From assembly GCF_003667705.1 (NCBI RefSeq), contig NZ_CP033019.1:1178001-1242000 (forward strand): a stretch of 64,000 nucleotides of DNA. Direction: 5' to 3'. Shown piece after piece: positions 35,019 to 58,324 of this stretch. Below the pieces are notes generated by a model. That model searched no databases. It had not been told where the DNA came from and saw only the letters and a program-made list of their open reading frames with translations. Position 1 is the stretch's first letter, and each line of letters starts with the position of its first letter. A program made the translations under genes and the position numbers. This DNA is from Janthinobacterium agaricidamnosum (GTDB taxonomy: Bacteria > Pseudomonadota > Gammaproteobacteria > Burkholderiales > Burkholderiaceae_D).

Positions 35019-35028
35019 GGACTTGACC

Positions 35029-35667
35029 ATGTTGACAACGAAATTCAATCTTACCCTGCGCCGTGCCGTGCTGGCCGCCTTGCTCGCTGGCAGCAGCAGC
35101 CTGGCGCTGGCGGACCCGCTAGCCTACCGCGTGGAAATCGACACGAGCCAGTTCTCGGGCGCCGGTTTCCTCGACTTCGCCTTTATCGCCGGCAACAGCC
35201 CGGCGCCGGGCGCGACAGCCACCCTCAGCAATTTCTCGGGCGCGTTCGGCGCGCTGGCATCGCAGGAAGGCAACGTCAGCGGCAGCTTGCCCGGCACCTT
35301 GACCTTCGGCAATAGTGGCGCCTACAACGACTGGTTTCACAACGTGACCCTGGGCGGCAAATTCGGTTTCAACGTCGTTTTCGGCGGCGACTTCCTGAAC
35401 ACGGCCGGCAACGCGGGCACGACGTTTGGCGTGGGCTTGCTCGACTACACCGGCACGTCCTACCTGGGCAATGTGAACGGCAACCTCGTGCAATTCGAAC
35501 TGACGCCGCTCAATGGGGGCATTCCGGCCAGCATCGCCGGCAGCACGTATGCGAGCATCGCGTCGATCTCGGCCGTGCCGGAAGCGTCGGAATGGATGAT
35601 GCTGACGGGCGGCCTGGCGCTGATCGGTTTTGCCTTGCGCCGCCGCCAGCCTGTCACGCGCGCCTAG
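35029..35667 (+). CDS. PEP-CTERM protein with a variant sorting motif
   Basis: The 212-residue protein has a signal peptide ending in Ala-Leu-Ala-Asp and a body with VEIDTSQFSGAGFLDFAFI, which resembles an unnamed PEP-CTERM family (NF038129-like, from memory). The C-terminal signal reads VPEASEWMMLTGGLALIGFALRRRQ, so the usual Pro-Glu-Pro is Pro-Glu-Ala, with Trp after it. AAGGA lies 7 bp before the ATG, and the 10-bp gap to the nuclease gene points to co-transcription. Confidence 0.82.
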   Translation: MLTTKFNLTLRRAVLAALLAGSSSLALADPLAYRVEIDTSQFSGAGFLDFAFIAGNSPAPGATATLSNFSGAFGALASQEGNVSGSLPGTLTFGNSGAYNDWFHNVTLGGKFGFNVVFGGDFLNTAGNAGTTFGVGLLDYTGTSYLGNVNGNLVQFELTPLNGGIPASIAGSTYASIASISAVPEASEWMMLTGGLALIGFALRRRQPVTRA

Positions 35668-36572: not shown

Positions 36573-37239
36573 TGCTGCTGACGGGGCGGGAGCAGGAATA
36601 CCTGCTGCACGCCATACTCGGCGCGCATGGCATCGCCGAGTCCGGCGATTTCTTTCTGTGGAGCCAGGGGCCGTTGCAAACGCTGTTGCCGCACGACTTA
36701 TTAATGTGCGCGCAGCTGGGCGCCGACGGGGCCGTGCTGCGCAGCGAAGCCTGGCACAGCATCGTGCCTGATCACGCGCAGCTGCGCGAGCGCCACGGCC
36801 AGCTGGCGCGCCTGGCGCTGGTCTGGCGCGCGGGCGGACAAAGGGCGGGCGTCATCGACGGCGTGCTGGTGCACGGCAGCGTGGGTGAGGGGGCGGCAGC
36901 TTTTTTGCCCTGTTCGCCATGGGAACCGTGGACGCGGCACGCCAGGCATACGCGCTGGAATTGCTGCTGCCCTACCTGCACCTGCACTGGCTGGCGCTGC
37001 CAGGCAGTACACGTGCGCCCCTGGCCGGGCCGGGCGCCACGCGCGCGGCCAGTGCGCGCGAGCTGGAAGTACTGCATTGGGTGCGCGAGGGGAAGAGCAA
37101 TGACGAGGTGGGGCAAATCCTCGGCATCAGCGGCACCACCGTGAAAAGCCATTTGCAGCGCATCTATAAATTATTGGGCGTGAGCAACCGCACGCAAGCC
37201 GTCTCGCGCGGCATCGCGCTGCGTCTGCTCAGCCATTAA
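36569..37239 (+). pseudogene. epsA: EpsA-like LuxR-type regulator, frameshifted
   Basis: Two overlapping frames together make one LuxR-type regulator. The N-terminal half (36569 to about 36900) contains FFLWSQGPLQTLLPHDLLMCAQLG, like the sensor part of EpsA of XrtB clusters. The C-terminal half (about 36905-37239) carries the LuxR helix-turn-helix with ARELEVLHWVREGKSNDEVG and GTTVKSHLQRIYKLLGVSNR. The switch between frames occurs at a run of six T (36901-36906). A seventh T would give a single 223-residue protein through Ala-Ala-Phe-Phe-Ala-Leu-Phe-Ala-Met-Gly. As written, the first frame runs on in unrelated sequence to 37144. It ends tail to tail with the I9-like gene. Confidence 0.8.
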
Positions 37240-37744: not shown

Positions 37745-40700
37745 TTACAGCTTGGCATCCACCTTCACGTTGCGCTGGCTGGGAACGGCCAGCGGCAGCG
37801 GGTTGTTGGTCTCCACCGACAGCACGGTGGTGGACGCGGCCGCATTGTTGCCATCAAGGAAGACTACGCCGCCCAGGTAGCGCTTGCCCGTTTCCAGTCC
37901 CGACCAGCTGACGCCGGCCGTGGCGCTGCCGCCCACGTACACCTTGCTGGGCAGGGTGGCTTTCAGGTTGCCGCCCTTGTCGGCTGTCGTGACGACGGCC
38001 GACGACAGGCCGAAGCCGGTCGACACGCCATTTGCCACTTCGTAGCCGATCACGCACACCTTGTAGCTGCCCGCCGCCGGGGTGGTCAAGGTGATGGACT
38101 CGTTCGAACCGGCCGTGGCCGAGGTGGCGACGGTTGCGCCGGTACTGTTGAGCAGCAGCAGGTCGAGGTCATTGCCGGCGCCCTCGGTCGTGTCGCGGTC
38201 GAATATTTCGAAGCGCGCCACGACGGTGCTGGCGGGAATGCTGACATTGACCGCGCGCACGCCGCTGCCGCCCGCCTTGCACGCGGCAGCCATCTGTTCC
38301 AGCGTGTCGACGCTGCCCGGCGCGGCCTGGCTGATGGTTTGCTCGCTGCGCGCCACTTCCTTCAGGCCGCCCGTCGCCGCGCCCACCTTGCCGGCAAAGC
38401 CGGTGGACAGCGTCAGCGAACGCAGGCCGCTGACCTTGTCGGCCTGCAGCAATGCCGGCGACTGTACCGCGCGGCCCGAGCGGGCCGTGACGGGGCTGCG
38501 CACCGTGTGCACGCCGTCGCTCCACACGAGGGCGCCGTACTGCCAGGCATTGTCCGGCGCCGTGGTGCGCGTCAGGGTCACGGTGAAGGACTTGGTTTCG
38601 CCGGGCGCGAGCAGCAGGGTGGCAGGCGAAACCGCCACGCTGTAGCCGCTGACCGAAGCGCTGGCCGTGTAGGTGGCGCTGCTGCTGCCCACGTTGGTGA
38701 CGCGGCGCGTCACCGTTTGCGTGCCCAGCACGTTGCCGATGGTGATGGACGGCATGTTCAGGTTGTAGCCGGCCAGGGTGCCGCCCGCGCATTCGGCCGT
38801 CATGCCGACGCCGCACATGTATTTCTTGTAGTCGGCCAGGCTGGCGTCATACACGAGGCCGGGATCGGTCGCCTTGTTCGGCGTCACGTGGCCGGCGCCC
38901 TGGCCCCAAGGCAGGATGCCGCGCGCGTCGCCCGCCTGAACGTCGGGCAGGGTGGTGCTGCCGGTCGTCATCAGGGCCGATTTGATGGCGGCCGGGCTCC
39001 AGTCCGGGTGCTGCTGGCGCAGCAGGGCGGCCAGGCCGGCCACGTGCGGGCTGGCCATCGAAGTGCCTTGCAGGAAGATGTAGGCTTGCGGCGGCACCAG
39101 GCTGCCATCCTGCACGGCGTCGCGCTGGGCGCGCGACAGGGCAGGCGTGCCGCCGGCCAGAATGTCCACGCCAGGGGCCGTGACGTCCGGCTTGAGCAGG
39201 TTGGCGTCGTACAGGTTCGGGCCGCGCGACGAGAAGTCGGCCACCACGGGGGCGGCGGGGCCGTTGCCGTTGGTGACGAAACGCGAGATGGCGGCCGTGG
39301 CCGTGCCCGTTTGCGCCTGGGCATTGATCAGCGCGCCATCGGCGGCGCTCACGTGCACGGCCGGCAGCACATGCGGGTCGGACACCAGACCGATGCCCGT
39401 GTCGACCAGCACCATGCCGGCGCCGCCCGCTTCGAGCACGGCGACGCCCTTGTCGGTACGCGCCGTGGTGCCGCGCAGGCAGCTGACGACCTTGCCGGCC
39501 ACCTTGGCCGGGTCCAGCAGGGCCACGCCGCCGTTGTCGCCGGCGCGGTAGCACAGCGCCAGTTTTTGCGCATCGGCGCCGGGCAAGCCCGCATCCTGGG
39601 CGCGGATCAGGGTGGTGGCCGGCAGCGGGTTGTAGTTGAGAGAGGCGCCCGTGTAGCTGGCGCCGTTGCTGAGAGTCACTTTGGCTTGGTTGGCGCGGTT
39701 GTGCGTCGAAGCGGCCACAGTGGTGATCCATGGGCTGACGTGAGCCACGGTATTGGCTGGCCCGGCATTGCCGGCGGACGCGGCAACGAAGACGCCCGCG
39801 TTCGACGCGTGCAGGAACGCTTGCTCGACCGGGTCGTTGACGGTGCCGCCGCCGCTGATCGAGTAATTGATCACGTGTACGCCGTCCTGCACGGCTTTTT
39901 CGATCGCCGCCACGCTGTCGCCGCCGTAGCAGCCGTTTTTCGCGCCGGTCGGCTGGGTGGCCAGGTTGTACGACCAGCACACCTTGTAGACGGACAGGCG
40001 GGCGCGCGGCGCCACGCCGGAAATGGCGCCCAGCGGCGAACCGCCGACAGTGACGGGCACGCCCGCATTGCCGCCCGCGGTGGATGAGGTATGCGTGCCG
40101 TGGCCGCCTTCGCCATTCGGGTCGCCGATGGAATCGCGCGGCGAGGTGTATTCGCTCCAGTGCTGGATCTTGTCCGTCTCGGTCAGGCGCACGGCGTTGA
40201 AATACTGCGCGCCGAGCAGCTTGTTGTTGCAATGGTCTTGCGTAAAGCCTTCGCCCGTCTGGCAGCTGCCTTTCCAGGCGGCCGGCGGAGCGCCGTAGGC
40301 CAGGGTGGCGTTCGGATCGAAGGTCGGTGCGCCGTTGGCGTCGACCTTGTCCGCATACGACAGGTTTTCCGGCCACACGCCGCCATCGACGATGCCGATG
40401 ATGATGTCCTCGCCCGCATGCTGCTTGCCGCCCAGCTGGCTCCACAGGCCGCCCGGCTGGTCCAGGCCCAGGAAGGTGGGCGTGTAGTTCGTCTGCAGGG
40501 CGCGCGGCTCGTCGGGGGCGATGCTGGCCACTTCGCCGCTCGCTTGCAGCTGGCGCACTTCGGCGTCCGTCAGCAGGGCGGAGAAACCGTTGAGGACGAT
40601 CTTGTACTGGTATTGCACGGGCGCGGCGGCGACGAGTGCTTGTACCCGGGCCTGTTTCTGCTCAAGGTAGTCGCCGTACAGCTGCACTTGCGCGCTGGCC

Positions 40701-40897
40701 AGGTCGAGGCGGCCGCCGGCGGCAGGCTGGGTGGCGCTCAGGCCTTCCACCGAGCCGGTGTAGGAGGCGATCGGTTTGTCGGTCAACTGCACGATGTAGG
40801 GGCGGCGCAGGTCGTCGGCGTGGGCCTGGAAGCTGAGGCTGGCAAACAGGCTCAGCACGGCGAGCGAAATGGGACGCAAGGCGGGACGGAATGTCAT
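37745..40897 (-). CDS. Secreted S8 family serine protease (subtilase)
   Basis: The 1050-residue protein has a signal peptide (to about residue 27) and an I9 propeptide (about 32-130). The peptidase S8 domain carries the complete catalytic triad: Asp171 in IVDGG, His266 in GHGTH and Ser613 in GTSMASPHVAG. A protease-associated insert (about 430-540) splits the domain. Fn3-like and pre-peptidase C-terminal-like regions follow. The start at 40897 begins the signal peptide. The frame remains open to 41311, but that part overlaps the next gene and looks like shadow sequence. It would be exported, perhaps by the secretion operon downstream, and act in the matrix or on surface proteins. Confidence 0.93.
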   Translation of the reverse strand: MTFRPALRPISLAVLSLFASLSFQAHADDLRRPYIVQLTDKPIASYTGSVEGLSATQPAAGGRLDLASAQVQLYGDYLEQKQARVQALVAAAPVQYQYKIVLNGFSALLTDAEVRQLQASGEVASIAPDEPRALQTNYTPTFLGLDQPGGLWSQLGGKQHAGEDIIIGIVDGGVWPENLSYADKVDANGAPTFDPNATLAYGAPPAAWKGSCQTGEGFTQDHCNNKLLGAQYFNAVRLTETDKIQHWSEYTSPRDSIGDPNGEGGHGTHTSSTAGGNAGVPVTVGGSPLGAISGVAPRARLSVYKVCWSYNLATQPTGAKNGCYGGDSVAAIEKAVQDGVHVINYSISGGGTVNDPVEQAFLHASNAGVFVAASAGNAGPANTVAHVSPWITTVAASTHNRANQAKVTLSNGASYTGASLNYNPLPATTLIRAQDAGLPGADAQKLALCYRAGDNGGVALLDPAKVAGKVVSCLRGTTARTDKGVAVLEAGGAGMVLVDTGIGLVSDPHVLPAVHVSAADGALINAQAQTGTATAAISRFVTNGNGPAAPVVADFSSRGPNLYDANLLKPDVTAPGVDILAGGTPALSRAQRDAVQDGSLVPPQAYIFLQGTSMASPHVAGLAALLRQQHPDWSPAAIKSALMTTGSTTLPDVQAGDARGILPWGQGAGHVTPNKATDPGLVYDASLADYKKYMCGVGMTAECAGGTLAGYNLNMPSITIGNVLGTQTVTRRVTNVGSSSATYTASASVSGYSVAVSPATLLLAPGETKSFTVTLTRTTAPDNAWQYGALVWSDGVHTVRSPVTARSGRAVQSPALLQADKVSGLRSLTLSTGFAGKVGAATGGLKEVARSEQTISQAAPGSVDTLEQMAAACKAGGSGVRAVNVSIPASTVVARFEIFDRDTTEGAGNDLDLLLLNSTGATVATSATAGSNESITLTTPAAGSYKVCVIGYEVANGVSTGFGLSSAVVTTADKGGNLKATLPSKVYVGGSATAGVSWSGLETGKRYLGGVVFLDGNNAAASTTVLSVETNNPLPLAVPSQRNVKVDAKL

Positions 40898-40940: not shown

Positions 40941-41699
40941 TCAGGCTTGCTGGCGGCGGCGCGCCGCGAAACCGATGCCTGCCAGGCCCAGCAGCAGCAT
41001 CGCGTAGGTCGATGGCTCCGGTACCGAGGCGACGATATTGTCGAGCGCAAACTGGCCCTTGTTGCTGTTGAAGGCGTTGCAACTGCCGGCTGTGTTGCAA
41101 GTGAAACCGAAGAAGGCCAGCGACGCGAACTGCTGGCTGCCGAAGTTGGCGCTGGTGTTGTAGCGCTGGAACTGGAAGTTGCCGCCGAGCGGGCCGCCCA
41201 GCTGGTACGTTTCATACATGTAAGAGCCGTCCGCATAGAAGCCTTGCACGCGCAGCAGGCCGGCCACGGCCGGATAGGTGACGCCCTGCGCATAGCCGAT
41301 GAAGCTGGCATCGAAACCTTGCAGGCTGACGCTGCCGCCCGTCTTCAGCGGGTCCAGGTAGACGATGCCGTCGTTGAGGGCCGCATAGTAATTGCTCGTA
41401 TTGTTGGTCGGGCACGCCATGCCGCAGGCGGCCGGGTCCGTGCCGTCGAAGACTGCGCCGACCAGGTCGCCATTACTGGCGCCGTCGGCATTTGAGAGGC
41501 CCGTCAGCAGGAAATTTTTGAATTCCAGCGAGTCGCCGTGGCCGACGAACTGGCTGTCGAGATTATCGAAGTTGATCACGTCCGCGACGGCGGCGGGAGC
41601 CCAGGCGGCGGACAGGGCCAGGATGGCGGCGCCGGTCCACTGCTTGGCCGAGAAAGGACTTGCTGCGGCAGTTGCCTTCGAATGCACAATACGAGTCAT
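40941..41699 (-). CDS. PEP-CTERM protein (unclassified)
   Basis: The 252-residue protein has a signal peptide ending near Ala-Val-Ala-Asp and an INFDNL-type opening found in many PEP-CTERM families. Four Cys form two close pairs (CGMAC, and CNTAGSC), and the sorting signal VPEPSTYAMLLLGLAGIGFAARRR closes it. The body probably folds as a beta-sandwich. It precedes the S8 protease by 43 bp in the same direction, so the two may be co-transcribed. Confidence 0.87.
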   Translation of the reverse strand: MTRIVHSKATAAASPFSAKQWTGAAILALSAAWAPAAVADVINFDNLDSQFVGHGDSLEFKNFLLTGLSNADGASNGDLVGAVFDGTDPAACGMACPTNNTSNYYAALNDGIVYLDPLKTGGSVSLQGFDASFIGYAQGVTYPAVAGLLRVQGFYADGSYMYETYQLGGPLGGNFQFQRYNTSANFGSQQFASLAFFGFTCNTAGSCNAFNSNKGQFALDNIVASVPEPSTYAMLLLGLAGIGFAARRRQQA

Positions 41700-42186: not shown

Positions 42187-42630
42187 ATGCATGCAGCACA
42201 CAGGCAGAACCTTGCGGCAACGCGCCATGCGCGCGGCTTTACCTTGCTCGAACTGCTGGTGGTCATCGTGATCATCGGCTTGCTGGCCGCGTATGTCGGC
42301 CCCAAGTATTTCGCCCAGCTGGGCAAATCCGAAGTGACGGTGGCCAAGGCGCAGATCGAGGCGTTTGAAAAATCGCTCGACACCTACCGCCTCGACGTGG
42401 GACGCTATCCGACCACGGAAGAGGGCCTGGCCGCGCTGCTGGCCGCGCCGCCCGCCGCCGGCACGCGCTGGAATGGCCCCTACCTGAAAAAAGCCGTGCC
42501 GCTCGATCCGTGGGGCCATGCGTATCAATACCGCGCACCGGGCAGCAAGGGCGAATATGACATCGTCTCGATGGGCAAGGATGGCCAGCCCGGCGGCAGC
42601 GGCGAAAACGCCGACATCAGCTCGCAATAA
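42187..42630 (+). CDS. gspG: Type II secretion major pseudopilin GspG
   Basis: The 147-residue protein has the prepilin site in RHARG-FTLLELLVVIVIIG with Glu5, the conserved PKYFAQLGKSEVTVAKAQI helix, the PTTEEGLAALL stretch and the C-terminal GKDGQPGGSGENADI, a calcium-binding loop typical of GspG. It forms the periplasmic pseudopilus. TAAGGAG lies about 7 bp before the ATG. It is the first gene of an operon that runs to 51621, and no prepilin peptidase gene is in the window. Confidence 0.95.
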   Translation: MHAAHRQNLAATRHARGFTLLELLVVIVIIGLLAAYVGPKYFAQLGKSEVTVAKAQIEAFEKSLDTYRLDVGRYPTTEEGLAALLAAPPAAGTRWNGPYLKKAVPLDPWGHAYQYRAPGSKGEYDIVSMGKDGQPGGSGENADISSQ

Positions 42631-42666
42631 CGCCAGCGCCATTCTTTTTCCTACGGACAAGCCATC

Positions 42667-43872
42667 ATGCAGTTTGAAGTACGCGCGCTTTCCACGGACC
42701 AGGCCGTAGCTACCTTGCATACGTGCGTGATCGACGGCCGCGACGAGGCGGACGCGCGCCGCCAAGCCGAGGCGCGCGGCCTGTTCGTCAGCGCCATCCG
42801 CCCCGTGCGGGCCACGCCGTTCAGCGCGGCCGGGCGCCAGCGCGCGCGGGCCTTGCCCCTGCTGCTGTTCAGCCAGGAATTGCTGGCGCTGCTGCAAGCG
42901 GGCCTGGGCATCGTCGAAGCGCTGGAAGCCTTGCTGGAAAAGGAAGCGTCGCCGGCCACGCGCAGCGTGCTCACGCGCCTGCTGGAAGGCTTGCGCGAAG
43001 GCAAGCGCTTTTCCGCCGTGCTGGCAGAGCAGGCCGAACTGTTTCCCCCCTTGTATATCGGCATCGTCAAGGCGGCCGAGGGCACGAGCGACTTGCCGCG
43101 CGCGCTGTCGCGCTACATCGACTACCAGCAGCGCATCGATACGGTGCGCAGTAAAATCGTCAGCGCCGCCATCTATCCGACTATTTTGCTGGCCGTGGGC
43201 GGCGGCGTCAGCGCCTTTCTGATCAGCTATGTGGTGCCCCGTTTCGCCGAGGTCTACCAGGGCGCCGGGCGCAATCTGCCGTGGATGTCGCAAGTGATGC
43301 TCAGCTGGGGCCAGTTCGTCACGCAGCATGGCGTGCTGCTGTTGCTGGGGCTGCTGATCACCGGCAGCGGCGTGTTCACTGCCGTGCGGCGCGCGCTGCG
43401 CCATGGCGGCGTGGCGCGCCTGCTGGCGAAGTTGCCGGGCATCGGCGAGCGCGTGCGCATCTATGAACTGTCGCGCCTGTACCTGACCCTGGGCATGCTG
43501 GCCGAAGGGGGCATTACCATCGTGCAGGCGATTGCCACCGTGCAAGCGATGGTCTCGCCGGGCATGCAGGCCTCCTTGCAAGGCGCGCGCGGCGCCATCG
43601 AGGCGGGCCAGCCGCTGTCGTCCGCCTTCGAGCAGCATCAATTGACGACGCCGATTTCCCTGCGCATGCTGCGCGTGGGCGAGCGCACGGGCGACATGGG
43701 GCCCATGCTGACGCAGTCGGCCGCCTTTTACGACGGCGAAATCAGCCGCTGGATCGACCGTTTTACGCGCACCTTCGAACCCTTGCTGATGGCCGCCATC
43801 GGCCTGGTCGTGGGCGCCATCGTGATCCTGCTGTACATGCCCATCTTTGACCTTGCCGGCGATATTTCATGA
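42667..43872 (+). CDS. gspF: Type II secretion inner-membrane platform protein GspF
   Basis: The 401-residue protein has two T2SF domains (about residues 68-190 and 270-392). Membrane helices lie near 165-190, 215-235 and 375-395. Typical motifs include LLLFSQELLALLQAGLGI and, in the second repeat, LARLYLTLG-like and LSSAFEQ segments. The N-terminal part is shorter than in some GspF proteins but the layout is complete. Its stop overlaps the gspE start. Confidence 0.93.
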   Translation: MQFEVRALSTDQAVATLHTCVIDGRDEADARRQAEARGLFVSAIRPVRATPFSAAGRQRARALPLLLFSQELLALLQAGLGIVEALEALLEKEASPATRSVLTRLLEGLREGKRFSAVLAEQAELFPPLYIGIVKAAEGTSDLPRALSRYIDYQQRIDTVRSKIVSAAIYPTILLAVGGGVSAFLISYVVPRFAEVYQGAGRNLPWMSQVMLSWGQFVTQHGVLLLLGLLITGSGVFTAVRRALRHGGVARLLAKLPGIGERVRIYELSRLYLTLGMLAEGGITIVQAIATVQAMVSPGMQASLQGARGAIEAGQPLSSAFEQHQLTTPISLRMLRVGERTGDMGPMLTQSAAFYDGEISRWIDRFTRTFEPLLMAAIGLVVGAIVILLYMPIFDLAGDIS

Positions 43873-45575
43873 TGCAGAGCGCAGCCGAATCCACCGCGGC
43901 CATCGCGGCCATCGACCCCGCGCTGCTGCAGCGCGCGCGCATGCTGAGCCGGCAATCGAAGCGCAGCCTGGTCGAGGAATTGCAGGAGCTGAGCGGCATC
44001 GAGGCGCGCGCCGTGGTGCGCGCACTGGCGCGCCCGTTCGGCCTGGACGTGCTGGAAACGGCCGACATGCTGGCCTTGTCTCCCGCCTTCGATGTGCTGC
44101 CCCTGTCGCAGGCACTGGCGCGCCACAGCGTGCTGCTGCGCGCCGCCGACGGTCAGCTGCTGGGCGTGATCGCCGACCCCTTCGACCTCGACCTGCAAAC
44201 CTGGCTCGGCGCGCGCGCGGGGCAGGGCGTGTTGGACGTGCGCCTGGCGCTGCAGGCCGACATCGGCGCCTACCTGTCGAAGCAGGAAGAATCGGCGCGC
44301 GCCGTCGACAGCCTGCTGCCCGGCGCGGCGAACGATGCGCGGCGCGACGGCAAGACGGCCGCCGTGCTGTCGTTCGCCAGCGTGTCGGAAGCGGCCAGCC
44401 CCGCCGTCAAGCTGGTCAACTCGACCCTGTATGACGCCCTGAAGGCGGGCGCCTCGGACATCCACCTGGAAAGCACGGCCGGCGGCTTGGCCGTCAAGTA
44501 CCGCGTCGACGGCGTGCTCGATCACGCCACGTCCGTCAACGGCATCGAAGTGGCAGAACACATCATCTCGCGCCTGAAAGTGCTGGCCGAACTCGATATC
44601 GCCGAGCGCCGCGTGCCGCAGGACGGCAGCTTCCGCGTCGAGGCGGGCGGGCGCGAAATCGATTTGCGCGTCTCCATCATGCCCAGCATCCATGGCGAGG
44701 ACGCCGTCATCCGCATCCTCGACAAGCGCGCCATGATCGAGGCCTACGGCGCGCTGACCCTGGAAGCGCTGGGCTTTGACGCGCCCTCGCTCGAAGCCCT
44801 GCGCGCGCTGGCCCAGGAAGCCTACGGCATGCTGCTCGTGACCGGTCCCACGGGCTCGGGCAAGACGACGACCCTGTATGCGGCGCTGACGGAAATCCAT
44901 AACGGGCGCGAAAAGATCATCACCATCGAGGACCCCGTCGAATACCAGCTGCCCGGCATCCTGCAAATCCCCGTGAATGAAAAGAAGGGGCTGACCTTCG
45001 CCAAGGGCTTGCGCTCGATCCTGCGCCACGACCCCGATAAAATCATGGTGGGCGAGATCCGCGACCGCGAGACGGCGGAAATTGCCGTGCAATCTGCCCT
45101 CACGGGCCATCTGGTGCTCACCACCGTGCATGCGAATAATGTGTTCGACGTGTTTGGCCGCTTTACCCACATGGGCATCGATCCGTATGCCTTCGTCTCG
45201 GCCCTGAACGGCATCTGGGCACAGCGCCTGATCCGCACCAACTGCCCCCATTGCGCCACCGACTACACGCCCGACGATGGAGAACTGGCCAGCGTGGGCC
45301 TGGCGCGCGCCGACGTGGCAGGCTATGAATTCAAGCAGGGCAAGGGCTGCGGCGACTGCCGCGGCACGGGCTACAAGGGACGCCGCTCGATCGCCGAGAT
45401 TCTCGTGCTGACCGATGAAATCCGCGAACTGATCGTCGATAAAAAACCGATCCGCCAGATCAAGGCGGCCGCGTATGCGAACGGCACGCGCAGCCTGCGC
45501 CTGGCGGCGCTGGAACTGGTCAAGCGGGGCGCCACCACCATCACGGAAATCAAGAGGGTCACCCTGCATGCGTAG
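43869..45575 (+). CDS. gspE: Type II secretion ATPase GspE
   Basis: The 568-residue protein has an N-terminal MshEN/GspE-N domain (about residues 35-135). The ATPase core carries GPTGSGKTTTLYAAL (Walker A, about 325), the Asp box IITIEDPVEYQL, the Walker B region LRHDPDKIMVGEIRD, a His box (LTTVHAN), and the four-Cys zinc motif with CPHC (about 460) and CGDC (about 496). This full set indicates an active secretion ATPase at the inner membrane. The next gene starts inside its last codons (8-bp overlap). Confidence 0.95.
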   Translation: MMQSAAESTAAIAAIDPALLQRARMLSRQSKRSLVEELQELSGIEARAVVRALARPFGLDVLETADMLALSPAFDVLPLSQALARHSVLLRAADGQLLGVIADPFDLDLQTWLGARAGQGVLDVRLALQADIGAYLSKQEESARAVDSLLPGAANDARRDGKTAAVLSFASVSEAASPAVKLVNSTLYDALKAGASDIHLESTAGGLAVKYRVDGVLDHATSVNGIEVAEHIISRLKVLAELDIAERRVPQDGSFRVEAGGREIDLRVSIMPSIHGEDAVIRILDKRAMIEAYGALTLEALGFDAPSLEALRALAQEAYGMLLVTGPTGSGKTTTLYAALTEIHNGREKIITIEDPVEYQLPGILQIPVNEKKGLTFAKGLRSILRHDPDKIMVGEIRDRETAEIAVQSALTGHLVLTTVHANNVFDVFGRFTHMGIDPYAFVSALNGIWAQRLIRTNCPHCATDYTPDDGELASVGLARADVAGYEFKQGKGCGDCRGTGYKGRRSIAEILVLTDEIRELIVDKKPIRQIKAAAYANGTRSLRLAALELVKRGATTITEIKRVTLHA

Positions 45576-46428
45576 CGGTTTTGCGAAGTTGAGATTTGGA
45601 AGATTTGGACAGGCATTGCGCCTGGGCGTGGCGGCGGATGGCTTGAGCTTGTGGCGGGGCAGCCGCTGGCGCGCGCCCGCCTGGACGCCGTTGGGCGAAG
45701 CCGCGTATGTGCCGGACGCCGGTCAAGGCCTGCATGGCGATTTTTCCGCCCTGGGCCAGGCGCTGGCGCAGTTGCTGGAGCGGCTGCTGCCGGCGGACCA
45801 ATACGCGGGCTGGCCCCTGTCCGTGGTGCTCGACGACGCTTTGGCGCGCCTGTGGCAGGTGGACTTGCCGCAGGGCGCCGCGCGTCTGGCCGACATCGAG
45901 GCGGCCGCCGCGCTGCGCTTCCAGTCGCTGTATGGCGATGCGCCCGGCCTGTGGCACAGCAGCAGTGCCTGGGATGCGCGCGTGCCGTTTTTCTGCGCAG
46001 TGCCCCGTGCGCTGCTGGCGCAGCTGACGCGTGTGGCGGCCGACCGCAAGCTGGCTCTGATTTTTATTACGCCGCAATTCGCGCGCCACTGGAACCGCTG
46101 GCACGGCGCATTGAAACCGGGCGCCTGGTTCGGCCAGTTGCAGGAAAACGCCTTGACCCTGGGCGTGCGGCACGATGGCCGCCTGTGCGCCGTGCGCGCG
46201 CTGCCCGTGCCGGCTGGTGCCGGCAGGGACTGGCTGGTGCAGACGCTGGCGCGCGAGGCGCTGCTGCAAGGCGTGACCGCACCGGCGCTGCTGCAGCTGT
46301 GCGGCACGCCGCCGCCCGCATGGCTGACGCCGACACAAGAGTTCCACTGCCAGGTTTTTTCCACGCCGGACGGGGAAGGCGCTTTGTCGCCGGCCGCCCG
46401 GCTGGCGCGTAGCGGAGGCGTGGCATGA
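45568..46428 (+). CDS. GspL/PilM-like secretion protein
   Basis: The 286-residue protein starts at 45568, 8 bp before the end of gspE, and its stop overlaps the next start. No transmembrane segment is obvious. The body (LGVAADGLSLWRG, LSVVLDDALARLWQVDLPQ, FFCAVPRALLAQL) has the feel of the actin-like GspL/PilM domain. Its place between the ATPase and a PilN-like gene supports a PilM or cytoplasmic-GspL role. The assignment rests mainly on position and weak pattern. Confidence 0.6.
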   Translation: MRSGFAKLRFGRFGQALRLGVAADGLSLWRGSRWRAPAWTPLGEAAYVPDAGQGLHGDFSALGQALAQLLERLLPADQYAGWPLSVVLDDALARLWQVDLPQGAARLADIEAAAALRFQSLYGDAPGLWHSSSAWDARVPFFCAVPRALLAQLTRVAADRKLALIFITPQFARHWNRWHGALKPGAWFGQLQENALTLGVRHDGRLCAVRALPVPAGAGRDWLVQTLAREALLQGVTAPALLQLCGTPPPAWLTPTQEFHCQVFSTPDGEGALSPAARLARSGGVA

Positions 46429-46973
46429 CGCGCCTCGATATCGATTTCGCGCCGCCCGGCTGGCGCCGCAGCCTGCACCGCGTGCCCGCCTGGGCATGGG
46501 GAACGGGGGCGCTGGGCATGGTGCTGGTCGTCACGGCGGCGTACAGCGGCAGCGCTGCGCTGCAGCGCCAGCAGCTGCGCGAGGGGCAGTTGCAGCGCGC
46601 GCAGCAACGCGTGCTGGCCGCCACGCTGGGCCCGGCGCCTGCGCCGCAAATGGCCATCGCACCGGCGCAGGCGGCGGCCGTGAATGCGGCCATCCTGCAA
46701 TTGAACCTGCCGTGGCGCGACCTGCAGGATGCGCTGGCCAGCGCCACGCCGCCCGCCATCGCGCTGCTGGCGCTGGAGCCGGACGCGCGCAAGCGCGTGC
46801 TGAAGATCACGGCCGAAACGACCGGCAGCGACGCCATGGTGGCCTATATCGCGCAATTGAAGCAGCAGGAGCTGTTCGGCTCCCGCGTGCAGCTGCTGCG
46901 CCATGAAATCAACGCGCTCGATCCGAACAAACCCTTGCGCTTCCAGCTTCAAGCGCAGTGGGGCACGCCATGA
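46425..46973 (+). CDS. PilN-like inner-membrane secretion protein
   Basis: The 182-residue protein has a short cytoplasmic N-terminus (LDIDFAPPGWRR, reminiscent of the PilN N-terminal strip that binds PilM). One membrane helix follows near residues 25-45, then a periplasmic ferredoxin-like region after a coiled coil. It fits the PilN/GspL-C family. It overlaps genes on both sides by 4 bp (ATGA), indicating tight translational coupling. Confidence 0.72.
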   Translation: MTRLDIDFAPPGWRRSLHRVPAWAWGTGALGMVLVVTAAYSGSAALQRQQLREGQLQRAQQRVLAATLGPAPAPQMAIAPAQAAAVNAAILQLNLPWRDLQDALASATPPAIALLALEPDARKRVLKITAETTGSDAMVAYIAQLKQQELFGSRVQLLRHEINALDPNKPLRFQLQAQWGTP

Positions 46974-47542
46974 CGGCCATCGATATCAATATCTTGCGCC
47001 TGCGCGCGCAACTGCTGCTGCGTCGCCTGGGCGTGCCCGCCTGCCTGGCCGTGCTTTTGCTCGCACTGGGGATCGCCGCCTGGGCATGGGCCTGGCAGCA
47101 GCGCGCCGTGGCGGCGCAGCTGGAAGCGCGGCCCTTGCCGCAGCCGGCGCTAGCCGTGGCGGCCCTGGCGCCGCCGGCGACGGCCAGCGAAAACCTGGCC
47201 CGTTTTTATGCCGCCCTGGGGCAGCAGCGCCATGCGGAGCAGCAGGTCAAGCAGCTGTTCGACCTGGCCGCGAAAAACGGCTTGCTGCTGACGCAGGGCG
47301 AATACAAGAGCGGCTACGACAAGGCCAGCCGTGTCGCCACCTGGCAGGTGACCTTGCCGCTGAAGGGCAGTTATGCGGCCGTATGGCAGTTCGCGCTGCA
47401 AGCGCTGCGCGCCGTCCCCTTTGCCTCGCTCGACGAACTGAGTTTTCGCCGCGAGCAGATCGCCGATACGCAACTCGAGGCGCGCCTGCGCCTGACCTTC
47501 TATCTGACCGATACGCCTGGCGTTGCGGGAGAAACACCATGA
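46970..47542 (+). CDS. PilO/GspM-like inner-membrane secretion protein
   Basis: The 190-residue protein has one N-terminal membrane helix (about residues 20-42) and a periplasmic part with a coiled coil followed by a domain containing LLLTQGEYKSGYDKASRVATWQ and LPLKGSYAAVWQFALQALRAVPF. This strand-helix pattern is typical of PilO/GspM ferredoxin-like domains. It starts in an ATGA overlap with the PilN-like gene. Named by pattern and order. Confidence 0.7.
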   Translation: MTAIDINILRLRAQLLLRRLGVPACLAVLLLALGIAAWAWAWQQRAVAAQLEARPLPQPALAVAALAPPATASENLARFYAALGQQRHAEQQVKQLFDLAAKNGLLLTQGEYKSGYDKASRVATWQVTLPLKGSYAAVWQFALQALRAVPFASLDELSFRREQIADTQLEARLRLTFYLTDTPGVAGETP

Positions 47543-48060
47543 CCCCGCGCCATTGGCTCATGCTGGCCGGCGTGCTGGGCGCGGGCGCCTTGCTGCTGTT
47601 CGGCGAGCGCCAGCCCGTGGCCGACGTGGCCGAGGCGGTGGAGCGGGCCGTCGCGCCCGCGCGTAAGCCGGCCGGCAAAGCGGAGGCAGCGCAGCCGGTC
47701 ATCCTGGCCCTGCTGCCGCGCAGCGAAGTGGCGGGCGAGGATGGCGACACCTTTGGCGGCGCCGGCGCTGTCTTCCAGAGCCAGAACTGGAATCCGCCGC
47801 CGCCGAAAACGGCGGTGACGGCTGCGCCGCCGCCACCGCCGCCGACGGCGCCGCCGCTGCCCTTCGTCTACCTGGGCAAGGCGGCCGCCGACGGCGCCTG
47901 GGAAGTGTTTTTGTCGCGCGCCGACAAGACGTATATCGTGCGCGCCAATACCGTCATCGATGGCGCCTACAAGGTCGTGACGATCGCGCCGCCCGTCATG
48001 ACGCTCACCTATCTGCCGTTGAACCAGGTTCAGCAGCTCAACATTGGAGTACTCGAGTGA
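47539..48060 (+). CDS. PilP/GspC-like secretion protein with Pro-rich linker
   Basis: The 173-residue protein has an N-terminal hydrophobic segment (residues 5-22), a flexible part ending in a long Pro run (about 85-110), and a C-terminal beta-domain (FVYLGKAAADGAWEVFL onward) like the homology region of GspC/PilP that contacts the secretin. Similar genes in related genomes carry the odd label 'secretion system X translation initiation factor', which is probably a misnomer taken from the Pro-rich part. The stop overlaps the secretin start in TGATG. Confidence 0.7.
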   Translation: MTPRHWLMLAGVLGAGALLLFGERQPVADVAEAVERAVAPARKPAGKAEAAQPVILALLPRSEVAGEDGDTFGGAGAVFQSQNWNPPPPKTAVTAAPPPPPPTAPPLPFVYLGKAAADGAWEVFLSRADKTYIVRANTVIDGAYKVVTIAPPVMTLTYLPLNQVQQLNIGVLE

Positions 48061-50090
48061 TGTCTCGTTCCTTTTCACCGGCGCCTTTGCTGGCGTTGCT
48101 GGTGCTGCTGTCCGGCTGCGCGGGGCAGCAAGCTTACCGCGACGGGCGCGAGCTGATTGCGCAAGATCAGATCCCGGCCGGCCTGCAAAAACTGCAGGAG
48201 GCTCTGCAGCAGGACCCCGGCAACGCGCAATACCGCAGCGCGTATCTGCAGGCGCGCGAACGGGCCACCAGCAGCCGCTTGCAGCAGGCCGAGCGCCAGG
48301 CGCAGGCGGGACAGGGCAACCTGGCGCGCACCTCCTTCATGAGCGTGCTGGAAATCGATGCGCAGAACGAGCGCGCCAGCAGCGGCTTGCGCGCGCTCGA
48401 ACGCGAGCAGCGCCAGGGCAAGCTGCTGGCCGAAGCGCAGAAGGATATCGACGCCAAGCGCTACGACCCCGCGCGCCAGCGCCTGAACGCCATCCTCACG
48501 GAGCAGCCGAATCACGCCGGCGCGCGCGCGCTGCTGCGCGAGGTCGATGAAAAAACGGCGCCGCCCGTGGTCGAATCGGGCCTGGCCAAATCGTACAAGC
48601 AGCCGATCACGATCGAGTTCCGCGACGCGCCGTTAAAACAGGTGTTCGAGCTGATCGCGCGCCGCTCGGGACTCAATTTCGTCTTCGACAAGGACGTCAA
48701 GGCGGACGCGAAAACCTCGATCTTCCTGAAAAACAGTACGGTGGAATCGGCCGTCTACTTCCTGCTGGTGACGAATCAGCTGGAGCAGCAGGTGATGGAT
48801 GCGAACACGATCCTGATCTACCCGAACGTGGCGGCAAAATTGAAGGAGTACCAGGAAGTGCTGGTGAAAACCTTCTTCCTGGCGAATGCGGATGCCAAGC
48901 AGGTGGCCAACACGCTCAAGACCATTTTGAAGACGCGCGACGTGGTGGCCGATGAAAAGCTCAACCTCGTCATCGTGCGCGACACGCCCGAGGCGATCCG
49001 CCTGGCCGAGCGCCTGATCGCGCTGCAGGACGTGCCCGAAGCGGAAGTGGTGCTGGAGCTGGAAATCCTCGAAGTCAAGCGCAGCCGCCTGATGGAACTG
49101 GGCGTGGCCTGGCCATCGAGCCTGACCCTGACGCCACTTTCCACCTCGGGCGGCGTGGGGCTGACCATCAACGACCTGAATAATCTGAACCAGCGCACCA
49201 TCGGCGTGAGCGACCTGTCCGTGACGGCGAATGCCAAGAAGACGGATGGCGACGCGAATATCCTGGCCAACCCGCGCATCCGCGTGCGCAACCGGGAAAA
49301 GGCGAAGTTCGTCATCGGCGACAGGGTGCCCGTGGTGACCACCACGATTTCGCCGGGCACGGGCGGCTTCGCTTCCGAGTCGATCAGCTACCTGGACGTG
49401 GGCCTGACGGTGAACGCCGAGCCGACCATCTATTTGAACAATGAAGTGGGCATCCGCATTTCGCTCGAAGTGAGCAACCTGGGGGCGGCCACCACCACCC
49501 GCAGCGGCTCGACCCTGTACCAGATCGGCACGCGCCAGGCCTCGACCATGCTGCAACTGAAGGATGGCGAAAACCAGGTGCTGGCTGGCCTGATCAACAA
49601 TGAAGAGCGCAGCTCGGGCAACAAGGTGCCGGGCCTGGGCGACATCCCCGTGCTGGGACGGTTGTTCGGCAGCAGCAAGGACGACAGCCAGAAGACGGAA
49701 ATCGTGCTGTCGATCACGCCGCACCTGGTGCGCACCGTGCAGCGTCCGGAAGCGAAGGAATCGGAATTCTCTGCCGGCACGGAAGGCAGCTTCCGCCGCC
49801 GTCCCGACATGGCGGCCAAGGCGCCCACGCAGATGCCGGGCACGGTCATCGTGCGTTCCGGCCCGTCGGCCGTCGGCATGCAGCCGGCGCCGGCGCAGCC
49901 GATGATGACGCCGGGCCAGGTGCCATCGACCTTGCCGCAGAGCGTGGCGGCGCCGGAAGTGGCGCCGTCGCCCGAGCCGGCCGCGTCGCCTTTGCCGATA
50001 TCGTCGGGCCAGCCCGTACCGCTGCAGGCGGCACCCTTGCCGCTGTCGTCGAGCCAGCCGGTGCCGGTGGTGCCGCCGCCCGCCAAATGA
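48060..50090 (+). CDS. gspD: Secretin GspD with lipoprotein signal and TPR-like N-terminus
   Basis: The 676-residue protein has a lipobox with Cys20 (VLLSGC), a TPR-like region (about 28-160), an STN/secretin N0 domain (ITIEFRDAPLKQVFELIA, about 182), an N1-type repeat (about 260-340), and the secretin core (about 345-560) with the VPGLGDIPVLGRLFGS motif. A Pro/Ala-rich tail of about 100 residues follows. It forms the outer-membrane pore. The TPR part is unusual for GspD and recalls PilQ/MshL-type secretins. The ATG at 48060 was preferred over a GTG 3 bp earlier. Confidence 0.93.
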   Translation: MSRSFSPAPLLALLVLLSGCAGQQAYRDGRELIAQDQIPAGLQKLQEALQQDPGNAQYRSAYLQARERATSSRLQQAERQAQAGQGNLARTSFMSVLEIDAQNERASSGLRALEREQRQGKLLAEAQKDIDAKRYDPARQRLNAILTEQPNHAGARALLREVDEKTAPPVVESGLAKSYKQPITIEFRDAPLKQVFELIARRSGLNFVFDKDVKADAKTSIFLKNSTVESAVYFLLVTNQLEQQVMDANTILIYPNVAAKLKEYQEVLVKTFFLANADAKQVANTLKTILKTRDVVADEKLNLVIVRDTPEAIRLAERLIALQDVPEAEVVLELEILEVKRSRLMELGVAWPSSLTLTPLSTSGGVGLTINDLNNLNQRTIGVSDLSVTANAKKTDGDANILANPRIRVRNREKAKFVIGDRVPVVTTTISPGTGGFASESISYLDVGLTVNAEPTIYLNNEVGIRISLEVSNLGAATTTRSGSTLYQIGTRQASTMLQLKDGENQVLAGLINNEERSSGNKVPGLGDIPVLGRLFGSSKDDSQKTEIVLSITPHLVRTVQRPEAKESEFSAGTEGSFRRRPDMAAKAPTQMPGTVIVRSGPSAVGMQPAPAQPMMTPGQVPSTLPQSVAAPEVAPSPEPAASPLPISSGQPVPLQAAPLPLSSSQPVPVVPPPAK

Positions 50091-50569
50091 GCGTGACGCG
50101 CGCGCAGGGCGGATTCACCCTGATCGAACTGCTGGTGACCCTGGCCATCCTGGGCGTGCTGGCCACCCTGGTGATCCCCATCACGCAGGTGACGATGCAG
50201 CGGCGCCAGGAGCAGGAATTGCGGCGCGCGCTGCGCGACATCCGCCAGGGGCTCGACGCCTATAAACGGGCTGGCGACGAAGGCCGCATCCTGCGCGCGC
50301 CCGACGCCAGCGGTTATCCGAAAAGCCTGGGACTGCTGGTCGAAGGCGTGCCGGACCAGCGCAACCCGAAGCGCAGCAAACTGTTTTTCCTGCGCCGCGT
50401 GCCGCGCGACCCGTTCAACGGCGACGCTGGTCTGAGCGATGCGCAAACGTGGGGCAAGCGCAGCTACGCCAGCGAAGCGGCCGAGCCGCGCGAGGGCGAT
50501 GATGTCTACGATGTGTATTGCACGTCCGGCAAGACGGGCTTGAACAACGTGCCTTACCGTTTATGGTGA
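50087..50569 (+). CDS. Prepilin-type pseudopilin
   Basis: The 160-residue protein has the prepilin site GG-FTLIELLVTLAILGVLATLV with Glu5, then a GspG-like helix (EQELRRALRDIRQGLDAY). Its C-terminal part has no Ca-loop motif like that of gspG. It may be a minor pseudopilin. It overlaps the secretin stop by 4 bp. Confidence 0.85.
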   Translation: MSVTRAQGGFTLIELLVTLAILGVLATLVIPITQVTMQRRQEQELRRALRDIRQGLDAYKRAGDEGRILRAPDASGYPKSLGLLVEGVPDQRNPKRSKLFFLRRVPRDPFNGDAGLSDAQTWGKRSYASEAAEPREGDDVYDVYCTSGKTGLNNVPYRLW

Positions 50570-50572
50570 ACC

Positions 50573-50965
50573 ATGCCCGCTGAAAACGCCCCACGCCGCA
50601 GGCGCGGCTTTACCCTGATCGAATTGCTGGTGGTGCTCGGCATCGTGGCGCTGTTGCTGACCCTGGCCGTGCCGCGCTACTTTCCCAGTCTCGACAAGGC
50701 GAAGGAAACCGTGCTGGCGGATAACTTGCGCAACCTGCGCACCACCATCGACCAGTTCCACGGCGATACGGGGCGCTACCCCGATTCGCTGGAGCAACTG
50801 GTGGACAAGAAATACCTGCGCGCCATGCCCATCGATCCCATCACGGACAGCGACAGCAGCTGGCTGATCGTGCCGCCACCGGACGACACGCCGGGCCAGG
50901 TGTATGACGTGAAAAGCGGCGCGCCCGGCAAGGACCGCAGCGGCACGCCGTTCGCCGACTGGTAG
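50573..50965 (+). CDS. Prepilin-type pseudopilin
   Basis: The 130-residue protein has a prepilin site (RRG-FTLIELLVVLGIVALLLTL) with Glu5, a PRYFPSLDKAKETVLADNL helix and a YPDSLEQLVDKKYLRAMPIDPITD segment typical of GspG-type pseudopilins. It starts 3 bp after the previous stop and is part of the same operon. The exact pilin role (G-, H- or I-like) is not clear. Confidence 0.85.
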   Translation: MPAENAPRRRRGFTLIELLVVLGIVALLLTLAVPRYFPSLDKAKETVLADNLRNLRTTIDQFHGDTGRYPDSLEQLVDKKYLRAMPIDPITDSDSSWLIVPPPDDTPGQVYDVKSGAPGKDRSGTPFADW

Positions 50966-50970
50966 CGGCC

Positions 50971-51621
50971 ATGTACCGTTCTGCGCGCCGCCAGCGCGGT
51001 TTTACTTACCTGGGCCTGATCATTCTGGTGGCTATTCTGGGCCTGGTAGGGGCGGCCGGGCTGAAGATGGGCTCCTTGCTGCAGCGCCAGGCGGCCGAGC
51101 AGGAATTGCTCGATATCGGCGCGCAGTTTTCAGACGCCCTGTACAGTTATGCGGCGGCCACGCCGCCGGGCCAGCCGCAACAGCCGCCGACCCTGGCCGC
51201 CTTGCTGCGCGATCCCCGTACGCCCCAGCTGCGCCGGCACCTGCGCAAGTTGTTTGTCGATCCCATCACGGGCCGCGCCGAGTGGGGCTTGCTGTATCAG
51301 CCGGGCAGCAACGGCATCATCGGCGTGTACAGCCTGTCCCAGGCTGCGCCGTTAAAGGTTGGCAACTTCGAGGCCCGGTTCGCCGGCTTCGAAGGCAAGG
51401 CGCATTTCTCGGAATGGCGCTTCATGGTCGATGCACGGGTGTCATCCGTGCCGTCTGCAGGACCGGCAGCTGTGCCAGCGAGTGATGAGGACGGCATCGC
51501 GCCCGCCTTGCCCGCGCCACCGTTGTTTTTTCGCCCTGTTACCCCACCGCAAGAACAAACGCCACCAGAGCCAAATGAACAGCTTGAACCGCAAAATTCC
51601 GCCGAAAACACTGCCGAATAG
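50971..51621 (+). CDS. Pseudopilin-like protein lacking Glu5 (possible GspK-type tip)
   Basis: The 216-residue protein has a prepilin-like N-terminus (RG-FTYLGLIILVAILGLVGAAG) with Gly where Glu5 is expected. Minor pseudopilin GspK also lacks Glu5 and caps the pseudopilus, so a tip role is possible, although the protein is shorter than typical GspK. The C-terminal third is Pro/Ala/Glu-rich and looks disordered. It is the last gene of the operon. Confidence 0.75.
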   Translation: MYRSARRQRGFTYLGLIILVAILGLVGAAGLKMGSLLQRQAAEQELLDIGAQFSDALYSYAAATPPGQPQQPPTLAALLRDPRTPQLRRHLRKLFVDPITGRAEWGLLYQPGSNGIIGVYSLSQAAPLKVGNFEARFAGFEGKAHFSEWRFMVDARVSSVPSAGPAAVPASDEDGIAPALPAPPLFFRPVTPPQEQTPPEPNEQLEPQNSAENTAE

Positions 51622-51863: not shown

Positions 51864-52361
51864 ATGAAATTGAAATTTATCGCTGCAGGCATCATGGCAG
51901 CAGCATCGTTCAGCGCGTCGGCAGCAACCTACGACCTGGGCATTCTGGACCCAGCCGGTTCCGATACCCTGTCGGCTTTCACGACCAAGTTTGCGATCAA
52001 TTCGCAGATCAATGATTCGTGGACCTTCCAGTTGCTGGCTCCATCGTCGACTTCGTTCGGTGCACTGCAAACGTTCTCCGTTGCTAACGGCGCGATCAAG
52101 GATTTCGCCGCTACCCTGGTCGGCTATGGCGACCTGGCCAAGAGCACGGCTAGCGGTATCCAGAATCTGAGCTGGGCAGGCGAATTGGCCGCAGGCACCT
52201 ACACGGTGCAAGTCACGGGTCTGACCCTGGTGAAAAATGTTCAGTACGTAGGCACGGTTTCGGCCCTGCCAGTACCAGAACCAGAAACCTATGGCATGCT
52301 GCTGGGCGGCCTGGCATTGGTTGGCGCCGTGGCACGCCGCCGCGCCAAGAAAGCTGCTTAA
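51864..52361 (+). CDS. PEP-CTERM protein, FxDxF-like
   Basis: The 165-residue protein has a signal peptide ending in Ser-Ala-Ala-Thr, an INDSWTFQL segment near residue 50 that corresponds to the FxDxF family mark in variant form, and the sorting signal VPEPETYGMLLGGLALVGAVARRR. The N- and C-terminal signals are typical. Upstream AAGGGA lies 6 bp before the ATG. It is the only PEP-CTERM gene here with a clear sigma-54-type promoter, and a strong terminator follows. Confidence 0.9.
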   Translation: MKLKFIAAGIMAAASFSASAATYDLGILDPAGSDTLSAFTTKFAINSQINDSWTFQLLAPSSTSFGALQTFSVANGAIKDFAATLVGYGDLAKSTASGIQNLSWAGELAAGTYTVQVTGLTLVKNVQYVGTVSALPVPEPETYGMLLGGLALVGAVARRRAKKAA

Positions 52362-57948: not shown

Positions 57949-57979
57949 AAAAAAAACCCCGTTTGACAACGGGGCTTTT
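57949..57979. terminator. Bidirectional terminator between icd and the cold-shock gene
   Basis: CCCCGTT and AACGGGG form a stem around TGAC, with eight A upstream (a T run on the minus strand) and four T downstream. A second, stronger hairpin (57923-57943, 9-bp arms) lacks a T run. Confidence 0.85.
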
Positions 57980-58001
57980 CACATCTGAGGGCCGGCGATG
58001 C

Positions 58002-58205: not shown

Positions 58206-58324
58206 AAAAAGAACTTTCAAAATTAAAACAAATCACACGAGCCATAAAAGCAAGAAGCTTCTTGCCCCCTCCTCGACGTCTCACTTCTTATCAAGCTGTA
58301 CATTACTGCAACAGTCGATACAGC

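Follow-up and report, generated by a model that had tools for sequence, protein, structure and literature searches.

A putative type II-like secretion operon with pilus-like platform proteins and PEP-CTERM neighbours in Janthinobacterium agaricidamnosum

We analysed a stretch of 64,000 nucleotides from the 6.36-Mb genome of Janthinobacterium agaricidamnosum (hereafter, the window; contig NZ_CP033019.1, C1:1178001-1242000 in our numbering). Eleven of its open reading frames (ORFs), all on the forward strand at 42187..51621, form an operon with the gene order G, F, E, M, N, O, P, D, H1, H2, K. We refer to operons of this kind as X; the UniRef name of one homolog of the P protein (P0198) reads "Secretion system X translation initiation f...". 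A preliminary description of this DNA had proposed a tightly packed hybrid of type II secretion (Gsp) and type IV pilus (Pil) genes, and the packing is as described. Intergenic distances range from -8 to +36 bp, i.e., neighbouring genes overlap by 1–8 bp or are separated by 3–36 bp, and five of the ten junctions are 4-bp overlaps. No -24/-12 (RpoN) signal exceeding that of shuffled sequences was found upstream, and scans for sigma-70-like promoters and terminators returned only background levels.

The secretion core named in the preliminary description is present, GspG by equivalog and the platform protein, ATPase and secretin by family only. The first gene, G (42187..42630, +), whose start is preceded by GGAG, encodes a major pseudopilin of the GspG family with Glu5 and a GspG-type C-terminal loop (PF08334, 147.5 bits; TIGR01710, 178.3 bits against a cut-off of 88.85); the loop is visible in all 18 relatives displayed. 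F (42667..43872, +) encodes an inner-membrane platform protein of the GspF/PilC family (PF00482; TIGR02120, 257.6 bits, below the cut-off of 424), and E (43869..45575, +) an assembly ATPase of the GspE/PilB family (PF00437, 407 bits) with an N-terminal MshEN domain (PF05157, 28.3 bits against a cut-off of 23.1). E scores 484 bits with TIGR02533 (cut-off 630) and 463 bits with TIGR02538, reaching neither cut-off. The secretin gene, D (48060..50090, +), matches PF07660, PF03958 (one stretch) and PF00263, and its product comprises a lipobox-like start, a TPR-like N-terminal part (the TPR_19 match is weak at 20.4 bits, below the cut-off of 25), N0, one N1-type domain, the secretin domain and a Pro-rich tail. 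It stays below the equivalog cut-offs for GspD (164 vs 351 bits), PilQ (157 vs 284) and MshL (TIGR02519, 100 vs 250). The lipobox pattern at the start of D recurs in 50 of the homologs at 62 loci that we compared throughout (60 fetched loci, the window and L016, a paralogous operon of the same genome); ORFs at the fetched loci were called by a simple script, so that their start positions are approximate.

Three further pseudopilins follow the secretin, one of them without Glu5, as had been noticed. H1 (50087..50569, +; PF07963, 34.3 bits) and H2 (50573..50965, +; PF07963, 36.7 bits) encode minor pseudopilins with Glu5, and in K (50971..51621, +) a Gly replaces this residue, which is a GspK-like trait. 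Across the loci, Glu5 is found in G (53/54), H1 (57/59) and H2 (54/60), the remainder having no recognisable signal, and in none of 53 K homologs. H2 and K reached no GspH, GspI, GspJ or curated pilin cut-off (H1 was scanned by Pfam only), and the GspK model is absent from the NCBIfam matches listed for K.

Between the ATPase and the secretin lie the four genes that had been described as PilM-, PilN-, PilO- and PilP-like. M (45568..46428, +) encodes a cytoplasmic protein, N (46425..46973, +) a protein with a hydrophobic N-terminal stretch, O (46970..47542, +) a membrane protein, and P (47539..48060, +) a protein with an N-terminal anchor, a Pro-rich linker and a PilP/GspC-type C-terminal domain. 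Searches of Pfam and NCBIfam to E 1 returned nothing for M, N and P, and only sub-threshold Pfam matches for O, so that neither N nor O of the window matched Pfam over cut-off. Other O genes do score over the PF04350 (PilO) cut-off, at some X loci that include the paralog in the same genome. Profiles of 35–38 X homologs were compared by hhalign with profiles of PilM, PilN, PilO and PilP (20 loci each), GspC (13 loci), and GspL and GspM (22 loci each), with the reference loci drawn nearly all from the same genomes as the X homologs. N matched PilN at 87% and GspL at 41%, and O matched PilO at 94.5% and GspM at 71%. The method is insensitive at this distance, since the accepted pairs PilN-GspL, PilO-GspM and PilP-GspC reached only 2.6%, 7.0% and 2.0% in the same run. 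Against PDB profiles, O found Myxococcus xanthus PilO (3jc8) at E 3e-8, and N found PilN (3jc8) weakly (E 0.036), ranked under an unrelated protein at 0.026. These sequence comparisons support N and O being nearer PilN and PilO than GspL and GspM, and the hybrid character proposed for the operon holds in this respect; the small genes were not all placed in ordinary GspL, GspM, GspC or GspK by the profile searches. P is equivocal, its sequence profile sitting between PilP (33%) and GspC (34%), with PilP of the PDB profiles found at E 1 only.

The PilM-like assignment of M did not hold. At the sequence level M was rejected as a PilM (hhalign 0.1%); its best match, a weak one, was GspL (10%), and no PDB profile matched. 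The predicted model of M (predicted local distance difference test score 88.5, predicted template modelling score 0.86) contains, by our own reading of the secondary structure of this one model, two RNase H-like halves. Such an arrangement would be consistent with an actin-like fold, which GspL and PilM share. At three of the 62 loci (L064, L067 and L102), M and N are a single ORF of 425–457 aa in the layout of GspL, with the M part N-terminal (E ≤ 1.3e-16) and the N part C-terminal (E ≤ 1.9e-23). In the E tree, L064 and L067, both of family code f5, group as sisters; L102, absent from the tree rows, has another (f43), and because of this difference we infer that its fusion arose independently. 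M is the probable equivalent of the cytoplasmic part of GspL and of PilM.

The operon recurs among the Burkholderiales, the order in which Janthinobacterium is placed, within the Oxalobacteraceae. The window's secretin had a match in 111 of 300 sampled Burkholderiales genomes (E 1e-40). In wider samples at E 1e-30, matches were obtained in 16 of 370 genomes for the class and in 11 of 397 for the phylum; of these, four and one, respectively, are weak (109–118 bits) and were excluded as members. The window's version of the operon (>900 bits) occurs in 18 of 25 genomes of the genus, and the named records nearest to D are from Janthinobacterium (98% identity at best). Iterated profiles, applied to genes near the secretin and on its strand, detected F at 60 of the 62 loci, E at 61, M at 61, N at 61, O at 62, P at 59, D at 62, G at 54, H1 at 59, H2 at 60 and K at 53, with several of the misses at contig ends. 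The exact string G-F-E-M-N-O-P-D-H1-H2-K is found at 31 loci, and departures from it at the others come from contig ends, ORF labels that overlap, gaps or an absent G. Five loci (L082, L084, L089, L092 and L113) carry a circularly permuted operon, O-P-D-H1-H2-K followed by G-F-E-M-N, with the labels of K and H2 swapped in L084. Because the gene order recurs across the Burkholderiales, the gene set is more than a chance assembly.

Trees of E (38 X rows, 15 Gsp, 3 others), F (38 X, 15 Gsp, 2 others) and D (38 X, 14 Gsp, 14 PilQ, 1 MshL-like), for which 38 of the 62 loci were used throughout, each separated the X rows from the rest by a single branch, supported at 100, 99 and 100, respectively, in the Shimodaira–Hasegawa-like approximate likelihood ratio test. 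Roots and deeper joins are unreliable in all three, as long branches meet there. By these sequence trees, the operon is a separate lineage apart from canonical Gsp. In the survey of Denise et al. (2019), 101 of 309 representative systems were classed as "generic" (PMC6668835); the text of that paper does not use the terms hybrid, Burkholderi or Geobacter.

The same genome carries several related machines. A search for T2SSE gave twelve matches, six of them full-length: a canonical Gsp type II secretion system (T2SS; L013), a PilB-like locus (L014), an MshL-like locus (L015, secretin 246 bits against a cut-off of 250), a TfpB-like pilus ATPase (L017), the window's operon and its paralog L016. 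The paralogous operon (L016:7452-16105, at about 5153-5162 kb of C1) has an E protein 54% and a secretin 47% identical to those of the window, and starts 243 bp after a gene, as called, for an M4 thermolysin-like protease. Peptidase_A24 has four matches in the genome and none at the operon, so the prepilin peptidase would be supplied from elsewhere. Weak PilO-family matches over cut-off, off the known pil and X loci, were also seen in two other genomes (G140:C1:116922-117326 and G315:C1:196760-197167), and are perhaps further copies of such systems.

Two readings of the machine itself can be weighed on this evidence. One is divergence alone, the operon being a standard Gsp T2SS into which no pilus parts have been mixed. 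It would account for G, E and F scoring best on Gsp models, for the GspL layout of the M-N fusions and for GspL being the best, if weak, match of M. We nevertheless consider it somewhat unlikely, as N and O fit PilN and PilO better, no GspH/I/J set was found, and canonical Gsp forms a separate clade that coexists with the operon in the same genome. In addition, none of the 27 matches of PF05134 (GspL) falls at an X locus, and 21 of the 47 carriers tested have no match at all. The other is a short surface pilus or adhesin resembling the mannose-sensitive haemagglutinin (MSH) pilus and not engaged in secretion, as the PilN/PilO-like parts and the single N1-type domain of D might suggest. Pilus secretins have one N1-type domain. 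Against this stand a major pilin that is GspG by equivalog, a K without Glu5, a secretin score of 100 bits where MshL requires 250, and the lack of PilT among the operon genes and among the window's ORFs beside them, and we regard a pilus as very unlikely.

We favour, as the probable explanation, a complete, divergent machine for type II-like secretion, with a pilus-like platform, that would export folded proteins delivered by Sec. From the components, their conservation, the separate clade and the gene linkage detailed below, all read at the sequence level, we infer machine assembly, export direction and cargo as follows. GspG would polymerise through ATPase E and platform protein F into a short periplasmic pseudopilus with H1, H2 and K, which lacks Glu5, at its tip, after processing by a prepilin peptidase encoded elsewhere in the genome. 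M would dock E at the membrane, M and N together doing the job of the one-protein GspL; N and O would form an inner ring, and P would connect that ring to secretin D, whose lipobox and TPR-like N-terminal part may guide it to the outer membrane. The substrates, exported by Sec, would fold in the periplasm and then be pushed outward through D. The likeliest candidate cargo in the window's lineage would be the S8 protease and the ExeM nuclease inherited together with the operon, and perhaps the linked PEP-CTERM proteins as well.

These candidates lie in the region around the operon. From one end, the window holds the gene for exosortase XrtB (7027..7932, +; TIGR03113, 398 bits against 275), the expected processor of PEP-CTERM proteins, then exopolysaccharide genes (EpsE, EpsG), PEP-CTERM genes, an ExeM/NucH nuclease gene, a response regulator, an EpsA-like gene and S8 genes, followed by a PEP-CTERM gene, the operon, another PEP-CTERM gene and murJ. 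The ExeM/NucH extracellular nuclease (32025..35018, +; NF033681, 574.3 bits against 300) is next to a PEP-CTERM protein gene (35002..35667, +; NF038129, 211.3 bits against 65), and a short LuxR-type regulator of 106 aa resembling EpsA (36919..37239, +) scores 95.7 bits with TIGR03020, below the cut-off of 170. The S8 subtilase (37745..40897, -; PF00082, 136.8 bits) has I9, PA and fn3 domains and a precursor of 106.9 kDa; adjoining it at 37236-37640 (-) is an S8-protease-like N-terminal fragment of 134 aa that looks like a broken copy. PEP-CTERM genes flank the operon on both sides, as had been reported: a divergent upstream neighbour (40941..41687, -; NF038120, 248.8 bits against 80; PF07589, 39.9 bits), itself a candidate cargo, and a downstream FxDxF-type gene (51864..52361, +; NF038126, 85.4 bits against 50). 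Further along, at 57949-58327 (-), is an Rfam match to the cspA thermoregulator (85.6 bits against a gathering cut-off of 78).

Four of the seven operon-less genomes of the genus (G003, G009, G011 and G013) were compared with this region. They are syntenic, but in all four the segment corresponding to about 31.6-51.8 kb of the window has neither a match nor room. The missing block of about 20 kb comprises the operon, the ExeM nuclease, the S8 protease and PEP-CTERM genes, among them that at 35002..35667, and the difference could be due to either gain or loss. The downstream PEP-CTERM gene (51864..52361) is probably outside the block, as it stays beside murJ in three of the four genomes. An S8 ortholog (>1500 bits) is found in 16 of the 18 genus genomes with the operon and in one of the seven without (Fisher P 0.001). 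Among 80 named loci, which are close relatives, neighbours detected by pattern or BLAST were PEP-CTERM genes upstream (47/72) and downstream (38/73), S8 (39/72) and murJ (72/73), where the denominators are loci with sufficient flank. At loci L060-L062 (family f21), the operon adjoins uvrB and not murJ, with the S8 and PEP-CTERM neighbours kept. A canonical gspE mutant of J. agaricidamnosum lost chitin degradation and retained protease activity, and a 106.3-kDa subtilisin-like protein was little changed in it (log2 ratio -0.66), in a study whose available text reports a single T2SS cluster in this species (PMC10470514). The likeness in mass between that protein and the 106.9-kDa S8 precursor of the window is a lead, not a match.

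The link to PEP-CTERM genes extends over the wider set. The flanks of the 62 loci (600.6 kb, 480 genes) contained 28 genes that passed a C-terminal pattern, 17 of which had PF07589 at E 0.01 and 14 over the gathering cut-off, at 12 loci. From the genomes' own PF07589 counts (662 in 42 of 56 genomes, none in the other 14), 1.5 were expected (Poisson P 8e-10 for 14 genes, 7e-13 for 17); the loci are related, and this background consists of six-frame hits at E 1e-3, which we judged to be near the gathering cut-off. Enrichment persisted with homologous neighbours collapsed to six events (P 0.004), with the window left out (12 vs 1.46 expected), and with families f1 and f21 left out (7 vs 1.1 at 49 loci, P 2e-4). 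One PF07589 match in the L107 stretch was missed by the pattern and left uncounted. Controls, by pattern only, were near expectation at 20 gsp loci (1 vs 0.69) and 20 pil loci (1 vs 0.63), the single pil match being probably a spurious ORF. An EpsA-like regulator is found at nine of the 62 loci, and at seven of them (L095, L098, L104, L109, L111, L091 and L070) it passes the TIGR03020 cut-off, lies inside the operon or up to 2 kb off, and is annotated as an XrtB/PEP-CTERM-associated regulator. In 16 of the 18 genus genomes with the operon, the exosortase is on the same contig, 23-41 kb away.

The preliminary description had suggested that the system exports the products of the PEP-CTERM genes, or the S8 protease and nuclease. 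The enrichment and the shared block speak for such a cargo, and PEP-CTERM export via the operon is plausible. As a full account, one could propose that PEP-CTERM proteins cross the outer membrane through this machine, with XrtB cutting or transferring them at the inner membrane and the folded, modified proteins then being exported by it. For this account speak the excess of flank genes over near-expectation controls, the EpsA regulators and the nearby exosortase, and also a precedent, as MYXO-CTERM and GlyGly-CTERM proteins are reported, in the text available, to be exported via T2SS (PMC11980579). How PEP-CTERM proteins pass the outer membrane was left unanswered in the consulted part of a 2006 study (PMC1569441) and is called unclear or undefined in that of a 2025 paper, where a polysaccharide secretion route is one suggestion (PMC12188702); a further paper assigns their step into the periplasm to T2SS, with no test in the portion available (PMC9850573). 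The 14 of 56 carrier genomes without any PF07589 match, the downstream gene retained beside murJ without the operon, and the exosortase, present in 39 of 40 genus genomes including all seven known to lack the operon, count against this account, which we consider unlikely. Exosortase presence as an explanation for operon presence was rejected on the same seven genomes. A bolder version casts the operon as the missing outer-membrane exporter for a subset of XrtB-processed PEP-CTERM proteins, and as a branch of the type IV filament superfamily with a split GspL, by which exopolysaccharide loci are coupled to the release of surface proteins; it is likewise improbable in our judgement. Shared regulation, or residence in a shared surface-polymer region, might instead explain the linkage, the machine exporting other proteins or none of these. 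The block does lie within an XrtB/exopolysaccharide region where PEP-CTERM genes also occur without it, but the linkage recurs beside uvrB and in other families, and we give this explanation an appreciable chance that falls short of even.

Several observations weigh against the exporter of folded proteins that we prefer. F, E, D, H2 and K remain under every NCBIfam equivalog cut-off, and the paralogous operon L016 has no GspG gene. The S8 ortholog is present without the operon in G001 and was not found in the operon-bearing G020 and G024, although the G024 contig ends there. A crude count of signal peptides in neighbouring genes showed no enrichment at X loci (92/289) over gsp and pil loci together (42/111; 24/54 at 14 gsp loci and 18/57 at 20 pil loci; one-sided P 0.9).

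Because of that signal-peptide count, exoenzymes beside other copies of the operon are given here as single cases picked by eye, with no statistic. They include a GH18 chitinase, a GH5 cellulase, an alkaline phosphatase, a phosphoesterase, another S8 protease, an M4 protease and Rhs/SpvB-like proteins, and look like T2SS-type exoproteins. Large Rhs/SpvB-like proteins, grouped by sequence clustering with two checked by Pfam, lie upstream of four of the five permuted operons. Separately, a lytic-transglycosylase-like gene adjoins 14 of the 62 loci (e.g., upstream of L073 and L070; two members SLT-confirmed). A recurring family of 317–559 aa (as called) lies downstream in L091, L095, L098, L104, L109 and L111, near PEP-CTERM genes and mostly with signal-like starts; the single member tested had no Pfam match and a weak PstS-like NCBIfam match.

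The "secretion system X" label was encountered in print in one genome announcement, where it is applied, as a label only, to Paraburkholderia nodosa in a system said to resemble that of Ralstonia solanacearum (PMC5095457); the available parts of two other papers cover ordinary gsp clusters only (PMC4690342, PMC2864759). The remark that little experimental work exists is borne out, as over a third of the sampled Burkholderiales genomes carry the secretin, yet our literature searches found no experimental study of the operon. Through the statistical link of the operon to PEP-CTERM genes, the question of their outer-membrane step becomes testable. The operon also unites pilus-type and secretion-type platform parts, and its locus family contains both split M-N and fused GspL-like forms, which bear on the origin of type II secretion from pili.

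Among known systems, the pairing of MYXO-CTERM or GlyGly-CTERM proteins with T2SS, as far as described in the accessible text of PMC11980579, likewise involves a C-terminal tag processed at the inner membrane; here the tag would be PEP-CTERM and the sorter XrtB, with export hypothetical. The MSH pilus has in common with the operon a compact single locus and an MshEN domain on the ATPase, but its pilins are different and D is far under the MshL cut-off. With the PilMNOPQ genes of the type IVa pilus, the operon shares an M-N-O-P run ahead of the secretin and the profiles of N and O. It differs from them in an M unlike PilM, in GspG taking the place of PilA, in the absence of PilT from the operon, and in a secretin of a separate clade that has no AMIN among its Pfam matches and is no PilQ equivalog. 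The T2SS shares GspG with its C-terminal loop, a Glu5-less pseudopilin, a GspE/GspF-type motor and a secretin, whereas the operon has M and N split, a PilN/PilO-like platform and no GspH/I/J set found, and forms a separate clade. Its secretin carries one STN and one Secretin_N stretch in place of N0-N3, together with a TPR-like part and a lipoprotein-type start.

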